Positions 1 through 27,568 of a stretch of DNA of 64,000 nucleotides are shown one piece after another. A program made the position numbers and the translations under genes. The stretch is from positions 124,001 to 188,000 of the forward strand of contig NZ_JAVDBT010000005.1 in NCBI RefSeq assembly GCF_030848395.1, read 5' to 3'. Within the stretch, counting starts at the first letter, position 1, and every line of letters begins with the position of its first letter. This DNA is from Pseudogemmobacter lacusdianii. GTDB taxonomy: Bacteria > Pseudomonadota > Alphaproteobacteria > Rhodobacterales > Rhodobacteraceae. Under the pieces are notes generated by a model, which did not search any database, was not told the DNA's origin, and was given only the letters and a program-made list of their open reading frames with translations.

Positions 1-555
1 GAGCTGGCGCCGCTTTACGCACGGGCGAAGGCGTTGGGGTTGGATGTGAAAATCCACTCCGAGCAGCTTTCCCATGCTGGCGGCACCGCCTTTGCCGCGC
101 GGCACGGCGCGCTTTCGGCCGATCACCTTGAATATGCCACCGCCGAGGATGCCGCGTTGATGGCGGCTTCAGGCACTGTGGCGGTGCTCTTGCCCGGTGC
201 CTTCTACACCTTGCGTGAGACGGTGTTGCCTCCCGTTGAGGCCTTCCGCGCCGCAGGCGTGCCGATGGCGCTTTCGACCGATTGCAACCCCGGCACCTCG
301 CCGCTGACCTCGATCTTGATGACCATGAACATGGGCGCGACGCTCTTTAGGCTGACGGTGTCGGAATGCCTGAAAGCTGTGACCTGCAATGCCGCGCAAG
401 CGCTTGGTCTTTCAAACGAAACCGGGCGGATCGCGCCCGGACTCTCGGCCGATTTGGCGCTGTGGGATGTGGAAAGCCCCGCCCAGCTTGTCGCCCGTAT
501 TGGCTTTAACCCGCTCCACTCCCGCGTCTTCAGAGGTGCAGAATGCCCGCAATGA
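1..555 (+). CDS. hutI: imidazolonepropionase HutI, C-terminal part (cut by window edge)
   Basis: Third step of histidine degradation: hydrolysis of 4-imidazolone-5-propionate to N-formimidoyl-glutamate in the cytoplasm. The frame is open from base 1, so the 5' part lies outside the window; about 184 residues are visible, roughly the last 45% of a usual 400-residue HutI. Family marks of this amidohydrolase are present: KIHSEQL carries the metal His and the catalytic Glu, SADHLEY follows, and [10 protein letters not shown] carries the metal-binding Asp. The gene overlaps the start of hutH by 13 bases, so it belongs to the hut operon. Confidence 0.95.
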
Positions 556-2105
556 CCCCGCTTATCCTGACCCCCGGAAACGCAACCCTGACCGAGCTTG
601 AGCAGGTCTGGCGCGAAGGGCTTGTCGTGCGCCTGCACGATTCTGCCCGCGCGGGCATCGCCACCTCGGCCGAGCGGATCGCGGCGGCGGCGGCGGGCAA
701 TGCGCCGGTTTACGGCGTCAATACCGGCTTTGGCAAACTCGCCTCGGTGCGGATCGCGCCGGCCGATACCGCCACGCTGCAACGCAACCTGATCTTGTCG
801 CATTGCTGCGGCGTGGGTGAGCCGGTTGAGCCGCAAACCGTGCGGCTGATCATGGTGCTGAAGCTTCTGAGCCTTGGCCGTGGTGCCTCGGGCGTGCGGC
901 CCGAACTGGTGGCGCTGCTCGAAGATATGCTGGCGCATGACGTGCTGCCGGTGATCCCGTCGCAAGGCTCGGTCGGCGCTTCGGGTGACTTGGCCCCGCT
1001 GGCCCATATGGCCGCCGTGATGCTGGGCGAGGGCCGGGCTTTGCACAAAGGCGTTGAGATGTCGGGCGCCGATGCGCTGGCAGCCGCCGGGCTGAAGCCT
1101 TTGACCTTGGCCGCGAAGGAAGGGCTGGCGCTGATCAACGGCACGCAAGTCTCGACCGCTTTTGCACTGGTCGGTCTTTTCGATGCCTTCCGTGCGGCCC
1201 GCGCGGCGCTGGTGGTCTCGTCGATGTCCACCGATGCGATCATGGGCTCGACCGCGCCCTTCATCGAGGAAATCCACACCCTGCGCGGCCATCGCGGCCA
1301 GATCATGTCGGCGCGCATCATCCGGGGGCTGATGGAAGGCTCGGCGATCCGCGAGAGCCACCAAGAGGGCGACAGCCGGGTGCAAGATCCCTATTGCATC
1401 CGCTGCCAGCCGCAAGTGACCGGCGCCTGCATTGACGTGCTTTTCCAAGCCGCGCGCACGCTGGAGATCGAGGCGAATGCCGCCACCGATAACCCGCTGG
1501 TGCTGACCAGCGCCGAAGGCGAGCCGTCGCTGATTATCTCGGGCGGGAACTTCCACGCCGAGCCGGTGGCGCTGGCCGCTGACCAGATCGCGCTGGCTTT
1601 GTCCGAGATCGGTGCCATCGCACAGCGCCGCATTGCGATGATGGTTGATCCGGCGATGAGCTTTGGCTTGCCGCCCTTCCTGACCAATGATCCGGGTCTG
1701 AACAGTGGGCTGATGATCGCCGAGGTCACCTCGGCCGCGCTGATGAGCGAGAATAAGCACCTCGCCAATCCCTGCTCGACCGATTCCACCCCGACCAGCG
1801 CCAACCAAGAGGACCATGTCAGCATGGCCGCTCATGGGGCGCGGCGCTTGCGTCGGATGAACGCAAACCTGGCGCATATCATCGGGATCGAGGCGATCTG
1901 TGCTGCCGCCGGGATCGAGGCGCGTGCGCCCTTGGCCACCTCGGGGCCCTTGGGTGCGGCTTTGGCGCGGCTGCGTCAGGACATCGCCCCGCTCGAGCAG
2001 GACCGCTACCTTGCCCCCGATCTGGAACTGGCAGCGGTGCTGGTCTCCAGCGATGCTTTGGCCAAAGCCGTTCCGGCCGCGCTCTTTGCTGAGCTGCGCC
2101 CGTGA
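543..2105 (+). CDS. hutH: histidine ammonia-lyase
   Basis: Removes ammonia from L-histidine to give trans-urocanate, the committed step of the hut pathway. The 520-residue length is usual. The Ala-Ser-Gly triad that cyclises into the MIO electrophile is at residues 146-148 within [15 protein letters not shown], and the active-site Tyr is at about residue 57 in [10 protein letters not shown]. The ATG at 543 lies inside the end of hutI; an ATG nine bases on (552) is an equally acceptable start. The stop overlaps the GTG of hutG as GTGA, which points to translational coupling. Confidence 0.97.
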
Positions 2106-2905
2106 AACCAGTCGAAGTCCAACAAGGCGACAGCCCCATCATCTTGGGGCTGCCACATACCGGCACCTTTCTGCCCGAGAATATCCGCGCGGCCTTGAAC
2201 CCGCGCGGGCAGGTTCTGGCCGATACCGATTGGCATATCGAGCGGCTTTATGACCAGCTTTTGCCCGGTGCCACCACGGTACGGGCGACCTTTCACCGCT
2301 ATGTCATCGATGCCAATCGCGGCCCCGAGGATGAAAGCCTTTACCCCGGCCAGAACACCACTGGCTTGGTGCCGCTGACCGATTTCGACGGCCATCCGAT
2401 CTGGGAGCGAGAGCCGGATGCCGCAGAAGTTGCAGCGCGGCTGAAGCTCTGGCACGCGCCCTATCACGCCGCCTTGCGCGCCGAGATTGAGCGGGTGCGG
2501 GCGCGGCACGGCGTGGCGATCCTTTACGATTGCCACTCGATCCGCTCGGTGATCCCTTTCCTCTTCGAGGGCGCCTTGCCCGATTTCAACATCGGCACGG
2601 TTGGCGGGCAAAGCTGCGCGCCGCAGATCGAGGCCGAGACCTTGCGCATCTGTCAGGCCACCGGCCGCAGCACGGTGCTGAACGGGCGTTTCAAGGGTGG
2701 CTGGACCACCCGCCATTACGGCAAGCCCGAAACGGGTGTGCATGCGATCCAGATGGAGTTGGCGCAATCCACCCATCTTGCGAGCGAACTGCCGCCCTAT
2801 GCCTATGACCCCGAGCGCGCGGCCTCTCTGCGCGTGCCATTGGCCGAACTGCTGGCCAGCCTTGCCGCGCTCGCGCCGACCCTTTCCAAGGAATCTCTTC
2901 GATGA
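2102..2905 (+). CDS. hutG: N-formylglutamate amidohydrolase (HutG-type)
   Basis: Releases formate and glutamate from N-formylglutamate, the end of the five-step hut route. The 267-residue protein has the N-formylglutamate amidohydrolase family pattern: [11 protein letters not shown] at the N terminus, [18 protein letters not shown] and YDCHSIRS in order. The GTG start at 2102 overlaps the hutH stop, and the stop overlaps the next ATG as ATGA. This form normally needs a formimidoylglutamate deiminase (HutF); hutF is not visible, so it probably lies upstream of the window or elsewhere. Confidence 0.92.
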
Positions 2906-4095
2906 AACCGCTCAATGGCATTCGGGTGCTTGACCTGACCCGAGTCCTGGCAGGTCCCTTCTGCACCGCCATCTTGGCCGATCTTGGTGCCGAGGTGATC
3001 AAGCTTGAGCCGCCGCAGGGCGATGATTATCGCCATATCGGCCCGTTTAGCGCAGGTGAATCCGCGCTTTTCACGCTGAACAATCGTGGCAAGCAGTCGC
3101 TGGTTGTGGATCTCAAGGCCGATGAGGGCCGCGCGCTGGCGCTGAAGCTGGCGGTGTCTTGCGATGTGGTGGTTGAGAACTTCCGCCCCGGCGTCGCCGA
3201 CCGGCTGGGCATTGGCGCCGATGCCTTGCGCGCCGTCAATCCGAACGTGGTCGTCGCTTCGATCTCGGGCTTTGGCCAAGAGGGGCCGGCGGCTGATCTG
3301 CCCGCCTATGATCTTGTCGTGCAAGCCATGTCGGGCTGGATGGATTCCACCGGCGCAGAGGGCGGCGATCCAATGCGCACGGGCGAGTCCATCGGCGATG
3401 TCGCCGCCGGGCTTTACGCCACGATCGGCATTCTGGCCGCTTTGCAAGGCCGCGCCGCCAATGGTGGCACCCATGTCGATATTGCGATGATGGACTGCCT
3501 TGTCGCCATGCTGCCCACCAGCCATGCGCTGCACCATTATGCTGGCCAGCGGGTCACCCGCACCGGCAATCGCCATCCGCTCTCGACCCCCTTTGGCGCC
3601 TTCCGCAGCGCCGATGGCCAAGTGATCATCGCCGTCTTGGGCCCGCGCCAGTTTGCCGGTCTTTGCGATCTGATGGGCCAGCCGCAGCTTGCCAGCGACC
3701 CGCGCTTCAACAGCGATGAGGCGCGGACCTCCAACGAACCCGCCTTGCGCGCGCTGATCGAGGGCTGGACCACCACGCTTTCGACCGAGGCGCTGATCGC
3801 CGCATTGCGCGGGGCAGGGATCCCGACCGCGCCGATCCAATCGCTGGCCGAGGCGCTGGAAAGCCCGCATGCCAAAGCGCGCGGGCTGGTGGCCGATCTG
3901 CCGCATCACAGCCTTGGGCAAAGCCCGGTCGCCGGGCAACCGCTGCGCTTTGACGGCGCAAAACCCTTGTCCGCCACCGGCGCTCCGGCGCTTGGCGGCG
4001 ATACCCGCCCGGTGCTGACCGCCTTGGGCCTTACCGCCGACCAGATTGCCGGGCTGATCGCCGCTGGCATCGTACAGGAAGCCGACCATGCCTGA
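2902..4095 (+). CDS. class III (CaiB/BaiF) CoA-transferase inside the hut operon
   Basis: Moves CoA between two carboxylic acids through an aspartyl-CoA anhydride. The 397-residue protein starts with the family signature LNGIRVLDLTRVLAGPF. The expected catalytic Asp is D166 in GESIGDVAAG. It is joined to hutG by an ATGA overlap, and the downstream acyl-CoA dehydrogenase starts inside its last codons, so it is co-translated with both. No CoA ester occurs in the standard histidine pathway, so the role is open. I infer a substrate related to urocanate, such as imidazolepropionate. A glutaryl-CoA transferase (GcdG-like) is the main alternative. Confidence 0.88.
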   Translation: MKPLNGIRVLDLTRVLAGPFCTAILADLGAEVIKLEPPQGDDYRHIGPFSAGESALFTLNNRGKQSLVVDLKADEGRALALKLAVSCDVVVENFRPGVADRLGIGADALRAVNPNVVVASISGFGQEGPAADLPAYDLVVQAMSGWMDSTGAEGGDPMRTGESIGDVAAGLYATIGILAALQGRAANGGTHVDIAMMDCLVAMLPTSHALHHYAGQRVTRTGNRHPLSTPFGAFRSADGQVIIAVLGPRQFAGLCDLMGQPQLASDPRFNSDEARTSNEPALRALIEGWTTTLSTEALIAALRGAGIPTAPIQSLAEALESPHAKARGLVADLPHHSLGQSPVAGQPLRFDGAKPLSATGAPALGGDTRPVLTALGLTADQIAGLIAAGIVQEADHA

Positions 4096-5230
4096 CTATT
4101 CCCACCTTTTGGATGAGGCCGAACGCGGCTTCATGGATATGCTGAACCGTTTTGCGGCCGAGGAAATCGCGCCGCTTGCGGCGCAGACCGATGAGACGGC
4201 GGCTTTCGTTCATCAGCAGATCGCAGCCCTTGGCGCGACCGGCATGATGGGGGCGAACCTGCCCGAGGCTTGGGGCGGCGCCGATATCTCGGCCCATGCG
4301 TTGTTTGAGGCGGTTGCGACCATCGCCGGGGCCTGCGCCTCGACCGTCTCGGCGCTGACCGCACATTATCTGGCAACGGATTCGCTTCTGATCGGTGGCG
4401 ATGACGCGATGCGCGCGCGCTATCTGCCCGCCGCCGCCGAAGGCCGCATGCTGGGCGCCTTTGCGCTGACCGAGCCCAATGCGGGTTCCGACCCCGGCGA
4501 TATGCGCACCCGCGCCGAGCGGGAAGGCGACGGCTGGCGCATTCGCGGCCGCAAATGCTTTATCTCGAACGGCGGCGTGGCCGATTTCATCGTGGTCTAT
4601 GCGGTGACCGATCCCGCGGCAGCGCATCGCGGCATCTCGGCCTTCGTGGTCGAGAAGGGCACGCCCGGTCTGGTGCCGGGCCGGGTTGAGCAAACCATGG
4701 GCCTGCGCGGCGGCCATGTCTGGGAGCTGGACATCGACTGCTATGTCCCGGCTGAAAACTGCGTCGGCCCCGAAGGCTCGGGCTTCCGCACCGCCATGAA
4801 GGTCTTGGACAATGGCCGCGTCGAAGTGGCGGCAATGTGCGTTGGCATCGCGCGCGCTGCACTGAGCGCTGCCCGCGACTGGTCCAAATCGCGCATCATC
4901 GGCGGCGAGCCTTTGGCGGCAAAGCAAGGTATCCGCTGGAAGCTGGCCGATATGGAGACCGATCTCGCCGCAGCCGAGCTTTTGGCGCATGAGGCCGCCC
5001 GCCAGCGCCAAGCCGGGCAACGCTTCACCGCCGCTGCAAGCCGCGCCAAGCTTTTCGCTTCGGAAGCGGCGGGACGCATCGCCGATCAGGCGATCCAGAT
5101 CCATGGCGGCTATGGCTACACCCGTGATTTCCCTCTGGAACGCCACGCCCGCGACCTGCGGATCATGCGGATCTACGAGGGCTCGTCCGAGATCCAACGC
5201 AATATCATTTCCGGCATTTTGCTCGCCTGA
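4088..5230 (+). CDS. acyl-CoA dehydrogenase inside the hut operon
   Basis: FAD enzyme that makes an alpha,beta double bond in an acyl-CoA and passes electrons to ETF. The 380 residues show the family order: N-terminal helical domain, ALTEPNAGSD near 127-135, and the C-terminal helical domain. The catalytic-base Glu is E364 in IYEGSSEIQ, the position used by short-chain acyl-CoA dehydrogenases. The C terminus lacks the YEGTHDIH form typical of glutaryl-CoA dehydrogenase, which argues against GcdH. The ATG at 4088 follows AGGAAG and overlaps the CoA-transferase end by 8 bases. Together the pair resembles the CaiA/CaiB carnitine system in logic. Confidence 0.9.
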   Translation: MPDYSHLLDEAERGFMDMLNRFAAEEIAPLAAQTDETAAFVHQQIAALGATGMMGANLPEAWGGADISAHALFEAVATIAGACASTVSALTAHYLATDSLLIGGDDAMRARYLPAAAEGRMLGAFALTEPNAGSDPGDMRTRAEREGDGWRIRGRKCFISNGGVADFIVVYAVTDPAAAHRGISAFVVEKGTPGLVPGRVEQTMGLRGGHVWELDIDCYVPAENCVGPEGSGFRTAMKVLDNGRVEVAAMCVGIARAALSAARDWSKSRIIGGEPLAAKQGIRWKLADMETDLAAAELLAHEAARQRQAGQRFTAAASRAKLFASEAAGRIADQAIQIHGGYGYTRDFPLERHARDLRIMRIYEGSSEIQRNIISGILLA

Positions 5231-5245
5231 GGAGGGCACGACATC

Positions 5246-6940
5246 ATGACAAACCCACGTCACAACACCCGCGACATCTACCCGGCGACCGGGACCGATC
5301 TGACCGCGAAAAGCTGGCTCACCGAAGCGGCTTTGCGGATGCTGATGAACAACCTGCATCCCGATGTGGCCGAAAACCCGCATGAGCTGGTGGTTTATGG
5401 CGGTATTGGTCGGGCGGCGCGGACCTGGAAGGACTTTGACCTGATCTGCGACGCGTTGCGCGATCTGGAAGAAGACGAGACGCTGCTCGTGCAATCGGGC
5501 AAGCCGGTCTCGATCGTGCGCACCCATAAGGATGCGCCGCGCGTGCTGATCGCCAACTCGAACCTGGTGCCGCGTTGGGCCAATTGGGAGCATTTCAACG
5601 AATTGGACCGCAAGGGTCTGATGATGTATGGCCAAATGACCGCAGGGTCGTGGATCTACATCGGCGCCCAAGGCATCGTGCAAGGCACCTATGAGACCTT
5701 TGCCGAGATGGGCCGCCAGCATTACGGTGGCGATCTGACCGGCAAATGGGTGCTGACCGGCGGTTTGGGCGGCATGGGTGGCGCACAGCCTTTGGCGGCG
5801 GTCTTCGCCGGCGCGTCCTGCCTTGCGGTTGAGGTGGATGAGACCCGCATCGACTTCCGTATCCGCACCAAATACGTTGATGCGAAAGCGAAAACCCTTG
5901 ATGAAGCGCTGGCGATGATCGCCGAGTGGAATGCCAAGGGCGAAGCGAAATCGGTGGGTCTTTTGGGCAATGCTGCCGAGATCTTCCCCGAGATCCTGCG
6001 CCGCCAACTGGCGGGTGAGCCGCTGCCGAATGGCCGCCCCGATATCGTGACCGACCAAACCTCGGCCCATGACCCGGTGCATGGCTACTGCCCGACCGGC
6101 TGGACCGTGGCCGAATGGCGCGCCAAGCAAGAAAGCGATCCGGCAGGCGTTGAGAAGGCCGCGCGCGCTTCGATGCGTGCCCATGTCGAGGCGATGGTTG
6201 GTTTCCATGACGCCGGCGTGCCGACGGTGGATTACGGCAACAACATCCGTCAGATGGCTTTGGAAGAGGGCTTCGAGCGCGCCTTTGCCTTCCCGGGCTT
6301 CGTGCCGGCTTGCATCCGTCCGCTCTTCTGCCAAGGCATCGGCCCGTTCCGCTGGGCGGCTCTGTCGGGCGATCCGGAGGATATCGCGAAGACCGACGCC
6401 GCGATGAAGAAGCTCTTCCCGGAGAACACCCATCTGCACCGCTGGCTCGACATGGCGGGCGAGCGTATCGCCTTCCAAGGTCTGCCCGCCCGCATCTGCT
6501 GGATCGGTCTGGGCGATCGTCACCGCGCCGGTCTGATGTTCAACGAAATGGTCGCCAGCGGTGAGCTGAAGGCCCCGATCGTGATCGGCCGTGACCACCT
6601 CGACAGCGGCTCGGTCGCCAGCCCCAACCGCGAGACCGAAGGCATGATGGACGGATCGGACGCCGTGTCGGATTGGCCGCTGCTGAACGCGCTGACCAAC
6701 ACCGCCTCGGGCGCGACTTGGGTGTCGATCCACCACGGCGGCGGCGTTGGCATGGGCTTCAGCCAACATGCGGGCGTGGTCATCGTGGCCGATGGCACCG
6801 AAGATGCCGCGCGTCGGTTGGAGCGCGTTTTGTGGAACGACCCGGCCTCGGGCGTGATGCGCCACGCCGATGCGGGCTATGAGCTGGCCAAGGATTGTGC
6901 GCGCCTGCACAACCTGCGCCTGCCGGGCATCCTCGGGTGA
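5246..6940 (+). CDS. hutU: urocanate hydratase
   Basis: Adds water to urocanate to give 4-imidazolone-5-propionate, using tightly bound NAD+ as an electrophile. The 564-residue length is usual (about 555-560). The glycine-rich NAD site [12 protein letters not shown] is at about 171-182, and the hallmark [15 protein letters not shown] holds the conserved Cys418. The ATG at 5246 follows the AGGAGGG site at 5230-5236. The last codon overlaps the GTG of hutD. It sits directly behind the acyl-CoA dehydrogenase gene. Confidence 0.98.
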
Positions 6941-20207: not shown

Positions 20208-20939
20208 TCAGCCCAAACCGGCGAAGGCTTTGAACTCGGCCTCGGCCTCGTCCAGCACCAAGGCCAAGAGCTCTTGGCCATGCTCTGGCCGCGCAAGTTC
20301 GGACCATGAGCCGACGCGGCCACAAGGAAACCGCGCGCGGTGCTCATCCGGTGGGCCGTGGCGGTCGCCAGAATGGGCGGCGCGGAAGGCAGCGTCGAGC
20401 AATTCGGGCGCGTCGAGCGGGGCGCGGTCAATGCGGCGGTGCAGGGCTTGGGTCAAAGCAATCTCGGACGGGGTGGCGTGCATCCCTTCCCACGCGCCAT
20501 AAAGCCGGGCGCGCAGGGCGTTGGTCTGCGGGTAATCCCACCACGACCGGATTTGCACGGCCAAAGCGGTCTTTTCGGCCATAGCGCGCAGGGGGGCTAG
20601 ATTGGCGCCGTGGCCATTCACCACATAAAGCCGCTGAAAACCGTGCTGCGAAAGAGCGGTGAAAATCTCGGACAGAAGCGTCGAAAAGGTCTGCTCCGAG
20701 ACGGAGATCGTGCCGGGAAATCCCATGTTGAAGGGCGCGGGCGTATAGGCCAAAGGCGGTAGGACGATGGAGCCGGTCCGTTCGGCCAGACGTTCCGCAA
20801 CCGCTGTGGCGCAAAGCGCATCCGTGCCGATCAGGCCGATTGGCCCGTGCTGCTCGGTCGAGCCGACAGGCAGGATCGCATCGCGGCGGGTGGCGAGGTA
20901 GGCCTCGACCTCTTCCCAAGCCATCATATCCAGTCTCAT
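20208..20939 (-). CDS. creatininase-family amidohydrolase
   Basis: Metal-dependent amidase family that includes creatininase and various formamide or lactam hydrolases. The ATG at 20939 follows AAGGAGAG and overlaps the GST stop as ATGA, giving 243 residues. Metal ligands of the family are in place: E29 and H31 in GSTEQHG, D40 in IGTDA, H110 in VNGHGAN, and an acidic residue in EGMHATPSE. It is the last gene of the leftward operon behind the GST, permease and binding protein. The substrate is unknown; an amide or formamide product of the island's pathway is a reasonable guess. Confidence 0.85.
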   Translation of the reverse strand: MRLDMMAWEEVEAYLATRRDAILPVGSTEQHGPIGLIGTDALCATAVAERLAERTGSIVLPPLAYTPAPFNMGFPGTISVSEQTFSTLLSEIFTALSQHGFQRLYVVNGHGANLAPLRAMAEKTALAVQIRSWWDYPQTNALRARLYGAWEGMHATPSEIALTQALHRRIDRAPLDAPELLDAAFRAAHSGDRHGPPDEHRARFPCGRVGSWSELARPEHGQELLALVLDEAEAEFKAFAGLG

Positions 20940-21580
20940 CGGGGGCTCTCCTTGCTGCGAACCCAATCTTGCAGGGCGCGGCGGTAGGTTTGGATGTGCG
21001 GGGCCAGAGCGGGCAGAGCCTCATAGGCTTGCGCGCAATGAGGGTCTGGCAGGCCCAGCTGAAGCGCTTCATTCAGGCTCTCTTGCACAAGCCCCACCGC
21101 ACAAAGCCCGCAATCGGGCAGGCCGGAGGTGTTGCCACTGAGAAAGGGGCCGGGGCCGGTCAGCTTCTGCAACGTCTCAAGATGGCGCAGAATGGTGTCA
21201 CGGGCTGCAGCGGGCACCACCGCACCGCTGCCCACCAACGGGAACAGCGCGCGCAAGGCGGGCTCAATCCGCAGGTCAATCAGCCGCGATAAGGCCCGGT
21301 TGCGGGCTCGAGAGGCGGGGTCCGTGCCCACCAAGGGTATGCCAAGCCCAAGGTCATCGAGATATTCAATGATCGTGTCAGATTCGACCACGAGCGCGTC
21401 GCCATAGCGCAGAGCAGGCACAGTGCCTTGCGGCACAATCGCCTTATACTCGGCGCTGCAATAGCCTCCGGGAGGCGGAAGTTCGCGCCACTCCAATCCC
21501 TTTAGAGCCAGCGCAATGCGCAGCTTGCAGCTGTAGACGCTGATCGGCGTGGCATAAAGGAGGAGCTCAGTCGCGGCCAT
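20936..21580 (-). CDS. glutathione S-transferase-like protein
   Basis: The 214-residue GST has an N-terminal thioredoxin-like domain (ATPISVYSCKLRIALALKG, the PQGTVPAL cis-Pro loop and the VESDTIIEYL glutathione-binding ES pair) and an all-helical C-terminal domain. The SVYSCKLRIAL start is close to zeta-class GSTs, which include maleylpyruvate and maleylacetoacetate isomerases of aromatic degradation, so a ring-cleavage isomerase role is possible. The ATG at 21580 lies inside the end of the permease gene; a GTG at 21592 is an alternative. Confidence 0.82.
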   Translation of the reverse strand: MAATELLLYATPISVYSCKLRIALALKGLEWRELPPPGGYCSAEYKAIVPQGTVPALRYGDALVVESDTIIEYLDDLGLGIPLVGTDPASRARNRALSRLIDLRIEPALRALFPLVGSGAVVPAAARDTILRHLETLQKLTGPGPFLSGNTSGLPDCGLCAVGLVQESLNEALQLGLPDPHCAQAYEALPALAPHIQTYRRALQDWVRSKESPR

Positions 21581-22367
21581 GCGTGCCGGCACCCATCCGC
21601 CGCTCCATCCGTCGCACGCCCCATGACACCAAAAGGATCAGGGCGAGATATTCCAAGACCAAGAAGCTGTAGATCTCCAAGGGGCGGAACTGTGATAAGG
21701 TCAGCTCATTGGCGCGGCGGGTCAGCTCTTGATAGCCGATCACCGAGACCAGTGAGGACATCTTCAGCACATAGACATATTGGTTGCCCAAGGCGGGCAG
21801 CACAGCGCGCACCACCTGCGGCAAGATCACCAGCCGCATGGTCTGCCAAGGCGAAAGGCCCAGCGAGCGCGCCGCCTCACCCTGGCCTTTTTTCACCGAT
21901 TGCAGGCCCGCGCGCCAAATCTCTGAGGTGAAGGCGCTGTCCGAGATGGCCAAGCACAAAAGCCCGGTGACAAAGACACCGGTTTGAAAGCCGGTCAGGA
22001 TCGGCAGGCCGTAATAGACCCAGAGGATCATCACCAAGAGCGGGATGGCGCGGAAGAACTCGACATAGATCCGGCTTGCGTAAAAAAGCGGCCGGCGCTT
22101 TGAGCTGCCCATCAGCGCCACCGCAAGTCCGACGCTCAGCGAGATCACCATCGCCAAGGTCGAAACCGAGACCGTCGCCCAAAGCCCCCAGATCAGGAAG
22201 CTGAGGTTGGACAGGCCACGCGGATCAAAGGGCGAAAGAATGTACCAAGCGAAATTATAGCCGCCGCCCGCGCCACTGCTCGCGCAGCCCGACAAAAGCA
22301 GCAAAGCGGCTGCCATAACGCTGTGCAGGGGCCAACGGCCCCTGAGTTCAGGTTTCGCCGCGATCAT
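21567..22367 (-). CDS. amino-acid-type ABC transporter permease with lipobox-like N terminus
   Basis: Polar-amino-acid family (HisMQ type) inner-membrane permease. I take the ATG at 22367, five bases after the binding-protein stop; the protein has 266 residues. The permease core carries FFRAIPLLVMILWVYYG and the cytoplasmic EAA-like loop QGEAARSLGLSPWQTMRLVILP. Unusually, the first hydrophobic segment ends in LLLLSGCASSG, which looks like a lipoprotein signal, followed by about 30 periplasmic residues before the next span. Only one permease and no ATPase are encoded here, so it must pair with itself and borrow an ATPase. Confidence 0.87.
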   Translation of the reverse strand: MIAAKPELRGRWPLHSVMAAALLLLSGCASSGAGGGYNFAWYILSPFDPRGLSNLSFLIWGLWATVSVSTLAMVISLSVGLAVALMGSSKRRPLFYASRIYVEFFRAIPLLVMILWVYYGLPILTGFQTGVFVTGLLCLAISDSAFTSEIWRAGLQSVKKGQGEAARSLGLSPWQTMRLVILPQVVRAVLPALGNQYVYVLKMSSLVSVIGYQELTRRANELTLSQFRPLEIYSFLVLEYLALILLVSWGVRRMERRMGAGTHGRD

Positions 22368-22374
22368 ATACCGA

Positions 22375-23181
22375 TCAGCCTTGACCCAACCATTTCTTGT
22401 CCAGCCCGGCAAAATAGCCGTCGATCTTGCGCAGGGTCACCCAAGTGTTGACGAAGTTCAGCCAGATCGGATCGTCCTGCGCCACGACATAGGCGAAGGG
22501 ACGGCGGTTGCGCATCTCGGCCCCGGGTACAACGATCTTCAGGTCGGGGAAGTTGGCGACCAAACTGCCTGCCTCGACGTTCGAGGTGATGGTCACATCG
22601 GCGCGTCCTGCCAGCACCTCTTGAAAGCCAGTGGCGGGCGATTGCACGGCTTGGATCGTGGCATTGGGGAAATGCGCGCGGGCTTGCTCTTCGAAGACGG
22701 TGCCCATCGAGACGGCGACGGTGATGCCGGCTTGGTTGATCGCCTCCCAACTGCCGAACCGCTCGGCATTGGCGGCGAGCGATAGGGGAACGGTGCCGGC
22801 CTCGGTATAGGGTTGGCTAAAGGCGGCAACCCGGGCGCGGGCCACGCTGACAGAGGCGCCCGAGAAGATGTCGAAGCGGTCAGCGGCAAGGCCGGTGGTG
22901 ATGGTGGACCATTCGGCGGCAACCCATTCCACTTGCACCTCTAACTCGGCAGCCAACTTGGTCATCGCCTCGATGTCATAGCCATCATAACTGTTGGAGG
23001 CGGTGTCGCGGAAAGACATCGGGTTGAAATCCCCGGTTGTGCCAACGCGCAGCACGCCTGCCTCAAGGATGCGCGACAGGCGCGAAGCCGGTGCGCTTTG
23101 CGCTGCGGCGGGTTTGCCGCCCGCCAGCATCAAAGCACCGCCACCTAGGGCAGCCATTGCGAAAAGGTCTCGTCTGTCCAT
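22375..23181 (-). CDS. amino-acid-type ABC transporter substrate-binding protein
   Basis: Periplasmic solute-binding protein family 3. The 268 residues begin with MDRRDLFAMAALGGG, a twin-arginine-like signal ending near AAAQS. The mature part (ILEAGVLRVGTTGDFNPMSF, YDGYDIEAMTKLAAELEVQV, DIFSGASVSVARARVAAFSQPY) resembles both polar-amino-acid receptors and the periplasmic cyclohexadienyl dehydratase PheC, which shares the fold. Tight linkage to the permease favours a transport role. The substrate is unknown. Confidence 0.87.
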   Translation of the reverse strand: MDRRDLFAMAALGGGALMLAGGKPAAAQSAPASRLSRILEAGVLRVGTTGDFNPMSFRDTASNSYDGYDIEAMTKLAAELEVQVEWVAAEWSTITTGLAADRFDIFSGASVSVARARVAAFSQPYTEAGTVPLSLAANAERFGSWEAINQAGITVAVSMGTVFEEQARAHFPNATIQAVQSPATGFQEVLAGRADVTITSNVEAGSLVANFPDLKIVVPGAEMRNRRPFAYVVAQDDPIWLNFVNTWVTLRKIDGYFAGLDKKWLGQG

Positions 23182-23222: not shown

Positions 23223-24278
23223 TTACGGCTTATGCGCGGTTGCGCCGCTGCATCGCCGCAGCGGTCCGGCGTCAATCATCGCATTGAAATCGTACGGTCG
23301 GTCGAGAAAACCATTTACCAGCAGATGTTCGTATTTCTTGCCGACTTGCGCAACGCGTTCAGCGGAAAGATTAATGTCTATCTGTTGAAGCAAACGAGAA
23401 GAATATCCTTGATCCAAGAACGACTCGGGCAGGCCGGTGTCATTGGCAAAAATACGGCGGGTTTCCGAGGCGTTTTGCGTCGCCCAATCTTGCGCCTGCA
23501 AGAGCTGCGCCATCCAACGATCTACCAAATCCGGTCGCTCGTCCAAGAGCTTGGCTGAGACGGTCAGCAAGATCGGATGGCCGAAGCCGGCTTCGCTGTC
23601 GTCTTCCAGCCCGCTCATCCGCGCCACTTCAAAGGCACCCGTAGTGGCGCAGAGGATGGCTGAAAGTGCAGCGTCGGAATAGATCGCATCGACCTCGCCC
23701 CGGTAGAGCGCCGCGATCTCCTCACGCTGCACAGCGAATTGGCTGCGGCTGCCCCAGAGCGAGGCGCGAGCCTCGGGGCCGATGGTGGCATCGTCGAAAT
23801 AACTGCGGTCAATCTCGATCGGCACGATGACAGGCGGCGGGGCGCCATCGGGCAAAAGGCGTTGCAGCTGTGCGATGCCCGCCAGCACTGTGGCACGCCA
23901 CCAATCGGTGCGGTCGTTCTTGCGGATGGGCAAGGCAATGCGCCGACCGGCCAGCGCCTGAGGGCCAAGGTTCGCTTTGCGCAAGTCGCTGTCAGGCAAA
24001 GCAAAAAAGCCCGAGCTTCGGTCGTGCCAATTGATCCCGATGATCCGCAGATCCACGCCTTTTGACAGTGCTTGTAAGGGTGGCACATAGCCGCCAAAGC
24101 GGAAAAGCGCAGGGTGGTCGTGGCTGTAATGTGCCAGCCGGGTAGCCTCATCGGCGGCTTCCGAGACCGAGCGGACCTCGATCCCGTCGGCGGCAAATTC
24201 AGCCTCGAGCCAGCCTTGCCGAATGGCAATCGAGGCCGCGGTGGGAGCCGGGCAGCGTGTATACCAAAGCGTTTTCAC
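23223..24278 (-). CDS. DszB-like desulfinase family protein (cytoplasmic, substrate-binding-protein fold)
   Basis: DszB cleaves the carbon-sulfur bond of 2'-hydroxybiphenyl-2-sulfinate. From memory of that sequence, this protein matches it over its length, and all three DszB catalytic residues are kept: Cys9 in YTRCPAP (Cys27 in DszB), His50 and Arg60 ten residues apart in HYSHDHPALFRFGG (His60 and Arg70). The GTG at 24278 follows AAGGA and gives 351 residues; DszB has 365. No signal peptide follows that start, so it should be a cytoplasmic enzyme and not a transporter receptor. Neighbours are a LysR gene upstream and ABC importer genes downstream in the same direction. The substrate is unknown; a sulfinate or sulfonate-derived compound is inferred. 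Confidence 0.72.
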   Translation of the reverse strand: MKTLWYTRCPAPTAASIAIRQGWLEAEFAADGIEVRSVSEAADEATRLAHYSHDHPALFRFGGYVPPLQALSKGVDLRIIGINWHDRSSGFFALPDSDLRKANLGPQALAGRRIALPIRKNDRTDWWRATVLAGIAQLQRLLPDGAPPPVIVPIEIDRSYFDDATIGPEARASLWGSRSQFAVQREEIAALYRGEVDAIYSDAALSAILCATTGAFEVARMSGLEDDSEAGFGHPILLTVSAKLLDERPDLVDRWMAQLLQAQDWATQNASETRRIFANDTGLPESFLDQGYSSRLLQQIDINLSAERVAQVGKKYEHLLVNGFLDRPYDFNAMIDAGPLRRCSGATAHKP

Positions 24279-24392: not shown

Positions 24393-25313
24393 TCAGTTAA
24401 ACTTATCGCAATCGGTCGCCTCAGCGAAGATCCAGTCGTGGAAGGCGCGCACTGCCGGCCGGTCCAGCGCCGTCTCGGGGCAGACGAACCAAAAGGCGTA
24501 ATCCGAGGGCACAGGCGGCAAGGTAAAGGGCCGCACCAACCGCCCATCGGCCAAGGCATCCATCACCAAAGCATCGCGTCCAAGCGCCACCCCCAAGCCC
24601 TCGATCGCCGCTTGCACCACCATATTGGATTGTCCAAACCGGCGCAGACGCGCTGGGCGCGGTAGCATGATGTTCGATTGGGCCGCCCAAAACTCCCAGT
24701 TCGGAAGGCGCCCTCCGGCGGGCTTTAGATCATCAACCAAGAGCGTGTGCCGCGCCAAATCGGCCGGGCAGCGCAGGTCAGGATCGCTGCGCAAAAGCTC
24801 GGGCGAGCAGACGGGGGTGAGATTCTCACCCAGCAACCGGCGCACATAGAGCCCTGAATATCGGCCCAAACCATAGCGAATCGCCACATCGGCCTCGCCT
24901 CCCGCAAAGGAGATCGCCCGCGCCTCGGTCGAGATCGAGACCGACATATCGGGCTGGGCCTGATCAAAGCGGATGAGCCGGGGGAAGAGCCAGTTGATCG
25001 CGAAGCCCGGCAGGCACGAGATTGAAAGGCTTTGCGCGTTGTTGCTGCGGTTGCGCAGCTCATTGCACAAAGAACCGATCCGGCCCAAGCCTTCGCCAAC
25101 CGCTTCGGCCAAGCGCCGGCCCTCATCCGTTGGGTGAGATGCGCGCGGACCGCGCACCAAAAGCCTTTGCCCAGTCCATTCCTCTAAAAGCCTGACATGC
25201 TGCGACACTGCGCTTTGCGAGATGCCCAACTCTTCGGCGGCGCTGGAAAAGCCGCCCATCCGAACGACCGCTTCGAAGGCGCGCAAGGCGGCGTAGGGCA
25301 AGTTGATCAACAT
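24393..25313 (-). CDS. LysR-family transcriptional regulator (GcvA-like)
   Basis: The 306 residues carry an N-terminal winged HTH (FSSAAEELGISQSAVSQHVRLLEE) and a type 2 periplasmic-binding-like effector domain with FPRLIRFDQAQPD and VAIRYGLGRYSGL, typical of the GcvA group. It is divergent from the M29-like/Rieske pair and co-directional with the DszB-like/ABC operon, 114 bases upstream of it. It is therefore well placed to control both arms of the island. The 103-base divergent gap (25314-25416) should hold its operator; I saw no strong T-N11-A repeat. Confidence 0.92.
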   Translation of the reverse strand: MLINLPYAALRAFEAVVRMGGFSSAAEELGISQSAVSQHVRLLEEWTGQRLLVRGPRASHPTDEGRRLAEAVGEGLGRIGSLCNELRNRSNNAQSLSISCLPGFAINWLFPRLIRFDQAQPDMSVSISTEARAISFAGGEADVAIRYGLGRYSGLYVRRLLGENLTPVCSPELLRSDPDLRCPADLARHTLLVDDLKPAGGRLPNWEFWAAQSNIMLPRPARLRRFGQSNMVVQAAIEGLGVALGRDALVMDALADGRLVRPFTLPPVPSDYAFWFVCPETALDRPAVRAFHDWIFAEATDCDKFN

Positions 25314-25416: not shown

Positions 25417-26502
25417 ATGCCCCAGTCGCAGTCCGATCCGCTTGCCGCAGCGGTGCAGAATCTTTTGCAGGGCTGCGCTGGGGCGCGGGCAGGGGAGCGT
25501 TTGCTCATGCTCGAAGAAGGTCCCGCGCTTGGTCATTATGGGCCGGGACTGGGGGATGTGATTGCGCAAGGTGCCAAGGCTTTGGACCTTGTGGTCGAGC
25601 GCCGTCAGGTGGGCTTCTCCCCCCATCCGCAAGAGCCTTCGCAGGCGATGCTTTTGGCGATGGCAGGGGCGCAGCATATCCTGTACCTCGCCCGCATCGG
25701 TGACCAAATGCGCTTTCGCGCGCTGCCCTATGCCGAGCGGTCTGTCGTCTCCTATGCGCTTGATCTGGCGTCATTTTCTAGCGCTTTTGGCACAATTCCG
25801 CATGGCGCAATGCTGGCGATGAAGGCCGCGATCAACGCCGCGATGGCAGCAGCGCAAGAGATCCATATCCGCTGCCCCTTGGGCACCGATCTGCGCGGCC
25901 GCATAGCGCCGGGGCAAAGCGCGCCGCCTGATGTTGGCATCCGGCGTTTTCCAATGGCGGTCTTTGCTCCGGTTCCGATGGCGGGCTTCAGCGGCAAAGT
26001 CGCGCTGGCGCGCTTCGTGCTTGGCACGGGTTCCGTCTATTACCAGCCGTTCCTGCACAAGCTGGATCAAGTGGTCACTGTCCAGCTCAGCGGGAACCGC
26101 GCTTTGCGCTATGACGGACCCGCGGATGTCGTGCAGTCCTTGCTTCGCCACATCGAAAGGGTGGCCAGCGCGCAGGGCTTGGATGGTCATTTCGTGCATT
26201 CTTGGCATGCCGGCATCCACCCCGGCTGCGCCTATCCCGGACGGGCAGAGGATCACCCCGAACGCTGGACCTGCAGCGCCTTTGGCAATCCACGGCTTCT
26301 GCATTTCCACAGCTGTGGCGATGACGCGCCGGGTGAAATTTGCTGGAATTTGCTTGATCCCACTGTCACCTTGGACGGTGTGGCCCTTTGGGAGGAGGGT
26401 CGGCTTCACCCGCGCAGGATTGTGGCGGGGGCGGCCGTTCTAGACGCCTGCCCAGAGCTTGCGGCCTGCTTTGCTGCCCCGGCCCGCGCGGTCGGGCTAT
26501 AG
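25417..26502 (+). CDS. uncharacterised protein, possibly related to M29 aminopeptidase/NicX-type metal enzymes
   Basis: I do not recognise it with confidence. The ATG at 25417 gives 361 residues; an in-frame start at 25387 is possible. The opening (ARAGERLLMLEEG) and general layout recall aminopeptidase T (M29) and the iron enzyme NicX (2,5-dihydroxypyridine dioxygenase). The C-terminal part has a striking His/Cys/Asp-rich stretch: HSWHAGIHPGC, then LHFHSCGDDAPGEICWNLLD. The H-x-D metal motif of M29/NicX is not obvious, so it may be a divergent branch or another family. It is 13 bases ahead of a Rieske oxygenase and probably acts in the same pathway. Confidence 0.5.
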   Translation: MPQSQSDPLAAAVQNLLQGCAGARAGERLLMLEEGPALGHYGPGLGDVIAQGAKALDLVVERRQVGFSPHPQEPSQAMLLAMAGAQHILYLARIGDQMRFRALPYAERSVVSYALDLASFSSAFGTIPHGAMLAMKAAINAAMAAAQEIHIRCPLGTDLRGRIAPGQSAPPDVGIRRFPMAVFAPVPMAGFSGKVALARFVLGTGSVYYQPFLHKLDQVVTVQLSGNRALRYDGPADVVQSLLRHIERVASAQGLDGHFVHSWHAGIHPGCAYPGRAEDHPERWTCSAFGNPRLLHFHSCGDDAPGEICWNLLDPTVTLDGVALWEEGRLHPRRIVAGAAVLDACPELAACFAAPARAVGL

Positions 26503-26515
26503 GAGGGAGTGCAGG

Positions 26516-27568
26516 ATGTATCTTTATAACGCGTGGTACGTCGCGGCTTGGGATCATGAGATCGGGCAGGCGCTGACGCCGGTGCGGATGCTGGATCAGC
26601 CGATCGTGCTTTATCGAACCAGCGCGGGCAAAGTGGCCGCGTTAGAGGATGCTTGCCCGCACCGTAAGCTGCCGCTTTCCAAAGGGCGGCTCTTGGGCGA
26701 TCAGGTGGAATGCGGCTATCACGGGCTGACCTTTGACGCCTCGGGCACCTGCACCCGCGTGCCGGGGGCCGAACGCATCCCGCACCGCGCCTGCGTGCGC
26801 TCTTATCCGGTGGAAGAGCGCTACGGGCTGGTCTGGGTCTGGATGGGCGAGGCGGCTTTGGCGGATCCGGCCAAGATCTTCCATGTCGATCACTGGGAGG
26901 ATCCGACTTGGGGCATCAATCGCGGCGATGCGATGACGCTGAAGTGCAACTACCTGTATATGAGCGATAATCTTTTAGACCCGAGCCATGTCGCTTGGGT
27001 GCATCGCAGCAGCTTTGCCGGGGCCGGCACCGATGAGGTCGCGCTGAACACCGATGTGGGTGAGAAGGGCGTAACGGTTTGGCGCTGGATGATGGACACC
27101 CCGCCCGCGCCCTTCTACGCGCAGTTCCTGAAGTTCCAAGGCAACTGCGACCGCAAGCAGCACTACGAGGTGCATTGGCCCAGCCATGCGATCATCCGCG
27201 CAATTTTCTCTCCGGCGGGGACGGGCGGTGAGGGGCAGCCGCTGCATCGCGACAGTTTCGTGATGGACAGCTACAACTTCATGACCCCGGTTTCGGCCAC
27301 CGAGACGCGGTATTACTGGTTCCAGATGCGCAATTTCGCCCCGAAGGATGCCGAAGTCAGCGCGCGCTTTGCCACCTCGGTGCGCGGCGCCTTCGAAGAA
27401 GACCGCGTGGTGCTGGAAGCCGTGCAAGAGGGCATGGATGCGATGCTCACGCCCAATCTTGATTTGGCGATTGATCTGGGACCGATGCGCTTTCGCGCGC
27501 GTCTGCGCAAGATGATCGAGGCCGAGACAGCGGCCCGCAACGCTCCGGCGGCAACTCTGGTAACGTAG
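26516..27568 (+). CDS. VanA-like Rieske non-heme iron oxygenase, catalytic subunit
   Basis: Aromatic-ring demethylase or hydroxylase of the vanillate demethylase oxygenase type. AGGAGGG precedes the ATG at 26516; 350 residues. The Rieske [2Fe-2S] ligands are C47, H49, C66 and H69 (CPHRKLPLSKG, ECGYHG). The mononuclear iron site is N152-LLD-P-H158-xxxx-H163. The start YNAWYVAAW and RSYPVEERYGLVWVW are VanA-like. No ferredoxin/flavin reductase (VanB-type) gene is in the window next to it, so electrons must come from a reductase encoded elsewhere. The natural substrate is unknown. Confidence 0.88.
   Translation: MYLYNAWYVAAWDHEIGQALTPVRMLDQPIVLYRTSAGKVAALEDACPHRKLPLSKGRLLGDQVECGYHGLTFDASGTCTRVPGAERIPHRACVRSYPVEERYGLVWVWMGEAALADPAKIFHVDHWEDPTWGINRGDAMTLKCNYLYMSDNLLDPSHVAWVHRSSFAGAGTDEVALNTDVGEKGVTVWRWMMDTPPAPFYAQFLKFQGNCDRKQHYEVHWPSHAIIRAIFSPAGTGGEGQPLHRDSFVMDSYNFMTPVSATETRYYWFQMRNFAPKDAEVSARFATSVRGAFEEDRVVLEAVQEGMDAMLTPNLDLAIDLGPMRFRARLRKMIEAETAARNAPAATLVT

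Follow-up and report, generated by a model that had tools for sequence, protein, structure and literature searches.

A DszB-like protein that keeps the desulfinase site residues, encoded in a Rieske oxygenase operon of Pseudogemmobacter lacusdianii

To our knowledge, cofactor-free sulfinate desulfination is known mainly from DszB. Here a further candidate is described: a 351-residue protein encoded in a 64,000-nucleotide stretch of the Pseudogemmobacter lacusdianii genome (the window), which is probably a DszB-family enzyme with the periplasmic-binding-protein fold that desulfinates an organic sulfinate, likely one with a ring, in the cytoplasm. It resembles DszB in full-length homology, fold, the Cys/His/Arg and RXGG residues in register, and lack of an apparent export signal. 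Three differences count against the desulfinase reading: identity is only about 26%; DszB lies on a separate branch; and His53 and His55 replace Tyr63 and Gln65. In addition, Thr7 replaces Ser25, and neither dszA nor dszC is adjacent. With Cys, His, and Arg kept, chemistry like that of DszB is the simplest interpretation.

The gene and its neighbors are as follows.

20208 to 20966, minus strand: creatininase-family amidohydrolase (Pfam Creatininase, 4.3e-50)
20936 to 21592, minus strand: GST-family protein (GST_N_3; best NCBIfam match maiA, below cut-off)
21567 to 22412, minus strand: HEQRo-type ABC permease, exact start uncertain (BPD_transp_1; TIGR01726, 84.8 bits, cut-off 42.2)
22375 to 23181, minus strand: amino-acid-type ABC receptor, downstream of the DszB-like gene (Pfam SBP_bac_3; top NCBIfam match a cystine receptor, far below cut-off)
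23223 to 24278, minus strand: DszB-like protein, 351 residues, GTG start; Cys9, His50, Arg60, and Gly62-Gly63
24393 to 25313, minus strand: LysR-type regulator, GcvA-like, directly upstream of the DszB-like gene (Pfam LysR_substrate and HTH_1; PRK11139 GcvA, 263.1 bits, cut-off 288)
25417 to 26502, plus strand, divergent: 361-residue protein of NicX fold (predicted fold only; model pLDDT 69.5)
26516 to 27568, plus strand: Rieske oxygenase of VanA/DdmC type (Rieske and VanA_C domains)

The reading frame of the DszB-like gene is open throughout, and the sequence AAGGA lies six bases 5' of the GTG start. A phmmer search of the PDB, which listed six sequences to E 10, returned DszB as the sole significant match: 2de2 (E 1.2e-18) and 2de3/2de4, the C27S form (E 4e-17), with the third-best at E 0.022. 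The alignment spans residues 3 to 330 of the window protein, so the agreement at Cys/His/Arg is no chance motif. Counted on this alignment, the register is Cys9 with C27, His50 with H60, Arg60 with R70, and Gly62-Gly63 with G72-G73; further, Thr7 with S25, Tyr51 with F61, His53 with Y63, His55 with Q65, and Gly63 with G73. The ten-residue spacing between His and Arg is common to both proteins, and the RXGG motif reads R-F-G-G. The preliminary description had proposed the three pairings, the spacing, and the FGG that follows; the alignment bears them out. For DszB, the accessible part of PMC6100217 counts C27, H60, R70, S25, G73, Y63, and Q65 among the residues in or around the site, and it assigns R70 to an RXGG motif that DszB homologs conserve. 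Judged from the alignment, His53 and His55 instead of Tyr63 and Gln65 would mark a different pocket.

Profile and structure comparisons agree. A profile built from 40 family members matches DszB over its full length (E 2.3e-45), and SsuA only along a short stretch, positions 63 to 117 (E 2.2e-9). A Pfam scan of the window protein gave no match up to E 0.001; from NCBIfam came SsuA_fam TIGR01728 alone, at 46.6 bits, below its cut-off of 163.5. The AlphaFold2 model (pLDDT 93.8) places three DszB chains first in Foldseek. A second structure aligner likewise ranks DszB first: 2de3_B, the C27S form with bound substrate (Z 32.9, rmsd 2.9, 321 residues aligned), then 2de2 (Z 31.5), SsuA (23.8), Thi5 (17.9), and MqnD (15.1), with the 4,5-dihydroxyphthalate decarboxylase 9jp7 (13.6) far under DszB. 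The predicted fold is thus that of DszB rather than of another protein with the periplasmic-binding-protein fold. No signal peptide is apparent, and strand 1 of the model begins at residue 3. Sulfonate receptors such as SsuA and TauA have the fold in common (Z up to 23.8) but are exported, and the triad is complete in none of four hand-picked nearby receptors. An ordinary ABC receptor, already doubted in the preliminary description for want of a signal peptide, was therefore rejected: there is no export signal, the DszB site is full, and profile and fold favor DszB. Sequence, profile, fold, and tree (below) all support its picture of a cytoplasmic DszB-like protein with a complete site, and the alignment and structure prediction that it had proposed as checks both came out for DszB.

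The LysR, DszB-like, receptor, permease, GST, and creatininase genes are co-directional, and the 361-residue protein and Rieske genes diverge from them; the same order is found in loci L013 and L014. The ABC importer, GST, and LysR regulator mentioned in the preliminary description are all present, but its list was incomplete, lacking the Rieske oxygenase, the NicX-fold protein, and the creatininase-family hydrolase. Its placing of the gene outside any dsz operon holds: among the eight scanned neighbors there is no flavin monooxygenase of dszA or dszC type. Genome-wide, four luciferase-family matches (E up to 1e-6) all lie on other contigs, so there is no DszA-type partner on this contig. The lack of an evident sulfinate-making flavin enzyme in the operon counts against the desulfinase reading.

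The 361-residue protein has no sequence match in Pfam, NCBIfam, or the PDB, a PDB profile search included. Its model (pLDDT 69.5, built from four sequences) best matches NicX, a 2,5-dihydroxypyridine dioxygenase (7cup, 7cn3; Foldseek E 2.4e-14), with Z 21.2 against 15.5 for M29 aminopeptidases; the likeness to NicX is one of predicted fold, at 12 to 13% identity and with no sequence-profile match, and it concerns the neighbor. Fourteen members share His264, His296, His298, and Asp320 without exception, and these residues could be metal ligands. The Rieske protein is nearest in the PDB to 7qwt and to the dicamba O-demethylase DdmC, with methylxanthine N-demethylase further down. Together the operon suggests an N-heteroaromatic ring as substrate.

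The chemistry, the substrate, and the order of the pathway are proposed as follows. An organic sulfinate (R-SO2-) would bind between the two lobes of the DszB-like protein, with its SO2 group held by His50, Arg60, and Gly63. Cys9 would then give a proton, or attack the sulfur, and the C-S bond would break to yield R-H and bisulfite, no cofactor being needed. The substrate is probably an N-heteroaromatic ring sulfinate, made or imported by the surrounding operon with its ABC receptor and permease, while the Rieske oxygenase, the NicX-fold ring opener, the GST, and the creatininase-like hydrolase would handle the carbon skeleton. The released sulfite could probably be assimilated; the genome encodes an NIR_SIR-domain protein of the sulfite/nitrite reductase family (two matches in one open frame, contig C15). 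Three matches to PF00174, a sulfite-oxidase-type domain, are also present. DszB itself works without cofactor, depends critically on C27, and loses activity about 17-fold in H60Q; thiol attack on sulfur and proton substitution at the ring carbon have both been proposed, the proton route being favored (PMC6100217, accessible part).

Conservation of the site was followed across the family, and members found without a sequence pattern were counted apart from those fetched by W[YF]T[RN]CP, which preselects the Cys. The pattern-free set comprises 26 of 28 matches (the window itself and one match under a stricter cut were left out); Cys, His, and Arg are complete in 23, and Arg is present in all 26. 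Pattern-picked members have the triad complete in 79 of 79, with His and Arg lying outside the pattern. The Gordonia copies are complete in 9 of 9 (10 loci; the partial match L122 was left out), and two of them, L123 and L124, are near DszB proper at 61% identity. Second copies inside the pattern-fetched loci are complete in 12 of 17. There are thus exceptions in 3 of the 26 and 5 of the 17; in five of these eight, Ser takes the place of Cys and the His is missing too. These Ser-for-Cys second copies (L033, L070, L114, L079, and L103) each lie in a locus with an intact copy; by their sequences, they are possibly inactive copies or binding proteins.

In a 62-row tree, the window protein falls in a nine-member clade (support 100/100) with L013, L014, Devosia L037, Rhodoferax L038, L039, Caulobacterales L040, Steroidobacter L041, and L042. 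DszB proper falls outside the 53-row branch that contains this clade (support 87/97). Its joining with a distant branch (L029, L030, and L022, with YTNCP and RxGG) is weak (80/39) and is flagged as a meeting of long branches.

The large branch is uncommon but spread, with members in the Alpha-, Beta-, and Gammaproteobacteria, the Actinomycetota, and a few other phyla. A DszB-like match occurs in 5 of 394 genomes of the window's family, 3 of 385 of its class, and 3 of 13 of its genus, the window's own genome being counted each time, and in 9 of 59 genomes of the genus of the Gordonia loci. On genome contigs, 582 of 593 pattern stretches encode relatives, among the matches listed; on viral contigs, none of 22 does. 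Relatives were found in 88 plasmid records (47 Sinorhizobium and 22 Rhizobium, many near-copies), where the protein, if named, is mostly annotated 'ABC transporter substrate-binding protein'. One correction to the preliminary description is that the protein does not stand isolated, given these relatives and the DszB-related proteins outside dsz already in print.

Neighboring genes were counted in 79 of the 80 fetched loci (the fragment L035 was left out), with neighbor seeds drawn from loci of the DszB-like family and gene calls from a home-made codon model that missed or cut some genes (the DszB-like ones of L038 and L042 among them). An LLM monooxygenase of NtaA/DszA or SsuD type occurs in 61 of the 79, a DszC-like acyl-CoA dehydrogenase in 33, and SsuB or SsuC in 34. 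Either an LLM or a DszC-like gene is present in 62 of 79 loci, or in 21 of 34 genus-level groups (grouped from record titles), the latter being the fairer count because many loci are close kin (Streptomyces and Agrobacterium). LLM genes per covered side number 0.17, 0.22, 0.14, and 0.21 from 0-2.5 to 7.5-10.5 kb; with no fall-off within 10 kb, distance is uninformative as a control, and genome density was taken as background instead: 176 luciferase-family genes in ten host genomes (63.5 Mb in total, all from loci having an LLM gene), or about 0.058 per 21 kb. Plasmid regions, in one or more records, have sulfite oxidase, NtaA/DmoA, SsuABC, FMN reductase, arylsulfatase, and cysteine dioxygenase genes nearby. 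The sulfur-gene link holds for the DszB-like family as a whole.

Within the window's own clade such partners are scarce, and it is here that the sulfur reading is weakest for the window. LLM or DszC-like partners occur in one of nine members, Devosia L037, although L040, L041, and L042 lie on short contigs (7 to 14 kb), where absences are weak. The Devosia protein is 57% identical to the window protein; two genes come next after its own, one SfnB/DszC-like (TIGR04022, 381.8 bits against a cut-off of 430.9) and one for an NtaA/DmoA monooxygenase (TIGR03860, 540.4 bits against a cut-off of 279.7). The Rieske and 361-residue protein genes together adjoin the DszB-like gene in four of nine (the window, L013, L014, and L041), and the 361-residue protein gene alone does so in L037.

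The operon also occurs without the DszB-like gene. The 361-residue protein is encoded in 48 of 394 family genomes, and only three of these (the window's, G037, and G040) have the DszB-like gene. Of the remaining 45, four at 31% identity or less were set aside; none of the regions fetched from the 41 others contains it around the 361-residue protein gene. Hence the operon reaches well beyond the genomes in which it includes this gene, which looks like an accessory graft; this absence from all 41 also counts against the desulfinase reading, a sulfur role of the operon being putative. Counted as any match at E 1e-15, so that unrelated relatives may swell the transporter and LysR counts, the 41 regions contain: Rieske, 32; SBP_bac_3, 31; permease, 31; LysR, 26; CMD-like, 19; creatininase, 17; sarcosine-oxidase-beta-like (SoxB-like), 7; GST, 6; Amidohydro_2 amidohydrolase, 5; any hut gene, 4. 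A recurrent operon of Rhodobacteraceae type thus emerges (L141 to L181), with Rieske, NicX-fold 361-residue, LysR, and amino-acid-type ABC genes, and with creatininase, GST, CMD-like, and amidohydrolase genes variable. In 26 of the 41 regions there is a gene for an ABC ATPase with 65% or more identity to the L141 one; it is absent in the window, L013, L014, and L142, where no ATPase gene lies directly beside the receptor and permease genes (21567 to 23181 in the window). L142, which lacks the DszB-like gene, compares with the window at 82% identity for the receptor and 85% for the permease, against 52% for the Rieske protein, 55% for LysR, and 48% for the 361-residue protein.

What this DszB-less operon degrades is suggested by one lead. 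The regions with a sarcosine-oxidase-beta-like gene (7 of 41) recall Mgd, which we take to be related to sarcosine oxidase. Mgd takes part in the catabolism of homarine (N-methylpicolinate) according to the available text of PMC13390433, so homarine catabolism is a possible identity. An imidazole substrate, by way of a histidine link, was not built on, since a hut gene occurs in only four of the 41 regions. The idea came from the hut genes, which adjoin the operon in L014; in the window, about 13 kb separate them from the operon's edge, and the histidine-utilization cluster (34 to 6940) is interrupted by two genes (2902 to 5230; both named by eye), one for a CaiB-like CoA transferase and one for an acyl-CoA dehydrogenase.

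Other functions for the window protein have to be weighed against desulfination, decarboxylation first among them. Amidohydro_2 proteins include known decarboxylases, and these, or CMD-like proteins, are encoded in some DszB-less regions (5 and 19 of 41); the operon is of ring-degradation type, NicX-fold protein included. The DszB-like protein might then stand in for the decarboxylating step of a heteroaromatic pathway, the same site protonating a ring carbon with CO2 rather than SO2 leaving. The DszB reaction has been modeled as a proton-for-SO2 substitution (PMC6100217, accessible part), chemically close to decarboxylation, and 9jp7 shows the same general fold (Z 13.6). We nevertheless regard decarboxylation as unlikely: the fold is far closer to DszB (Z 32.9); members within Ssu/LLM operons have the same Cys/His/Arg site; SfnB-like and NtaA/DmoA genes accompany the Devosia clade-mate; and amidohydrolase and DszB-like genes co-occur in L015, L043, L046, and L050.

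Less probable still seems a desulfinase role outside the ring pathway, on a small sulfinate (aliphatic or resembling an amino acid) that the SBP_bac_3 system would bring in. Receptor and permease are indeed of amino-acid type, and a Variovorax member is accompanied by an amino-acid ABC importer and a cysteine dioxygenase family gene; but the mechanism favored for DszB is an electrophilic aromatic substitution (PMC6100217, accessible part), and in L142, which has the ring operon but no DszB-like gene, receptor and permease are still conserved (at the identities given above). A non-catalytic cytoplasmic binding or sensor protein that retains the Cys/His/Arg site for its ligand would suit the periplasmic-binding-protein fold, the weak SsuA_fam match, and the 5 of 43 copies with Ser for Cys and no His, which are probably not catalytic, but is the least probable of the three: the window copy retains the whole triad and both Gly; a receptor is already encoded in the cluster; and DszB with C27 changed to serine is reported inactive (PMC6100217, accessible part), which suggests that a kept Cys serves catalysis.

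If the protein is a ring-sulfinate desulfinase, a broader and quite tentative reading would be flavin-independent desulfurization, in which a DszB-family desulfinase was recruited to a Rieske/NicX-fold N-heteroaromatic operon, so that natural rings carrying sulfur could be desulfinated and then opened. Sulfinates from thiol-imidazoles or thiol-pyridines might, as part of the same doubtful proposal, be example substrates. The donor, no more certain, might be the large branch of desulfinases, whose members are often annotated as ABC receptors and whose oxygenase partners differ between bacteria.

This kind of protein is already known; the branch as a whole and its Rieske/NicX-fold setting were not found described. 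A search of mainly open-access literature, which is no proof of absence, turned up no study of the DszB-like branch outside biodesulfurization and none coupling the Rieske/NicX-fold partner set to a desulfinase. One precedent is the Gordonia terrae C-6 bdsABC operon, of low homology to dsz, with the desulfinase GTC6_01605 (BdsA; PMC3868597, discussed in PMC11852219, both in their accessible parts); extracts of Escherichia coli with the bds operon made o-hydroxystyrene from benzothiophene (PMC3868597). Like the window gene, the bds desulfinase gene lies outside dsz, with monooxygenase and transporter genes nearby; unlike the window operon, bds has flavin monooxygenase partners (PMC3868597, accessible part). 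The similar gene order of L117 to L121, as distinct from sequence, suggests that the bds desulfinase belongs to the same branch. In Rhodococcus qingshengii, IGTS8_peg4802 ('SsuA/DszB') is encoded apart from dsz, among Ssu genes, and appears in a list of proteins changed on dibenzothiophene; we read it as upregulated because a downregulated heading appears further on in that table (PMC8557817, accessible part). By its label alone it resembles the window protein as a DszB outside dsz, and its Ssu context differs. The available text of PMC6395730 describes a sulfolane-degrading Rhodoferax as having no dszB.

DszB has been called the slowest step and bottleneck of biodesulfurization (PMC6100217, accessible part). 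A broad branch with the same site and other partners would widen the pool of desulfinase enzymes, would hint at how sulfone and sulfinate breakdown is completed in many bacteria, those of soil included, and would correct an annotation error, relatives often being labeled transport proteins.

Several loci show other arrangements. Three DszB-like paralogs lie within about 7 to 20 kb, with LLM monooxygenase and Ssu-type transporter genes, in L017, L019 with L020, and L027; these come from Sphingobium (L027) and two other genomes of the window's class. In Rhizobium leguminosarum L029, the DszB-like gene sits among 2-hydroxyacyl-CoA dehydratase, rhodanese, and sulfate permease genes. Variovorax L026 adds a sulfurtransferase gene and metC to the amino-acid ABC importer and cysteine dioxygenase family genes beside its DszB-like gene, a set that possibly forms a route from thiol to sulfinate to sulfite.
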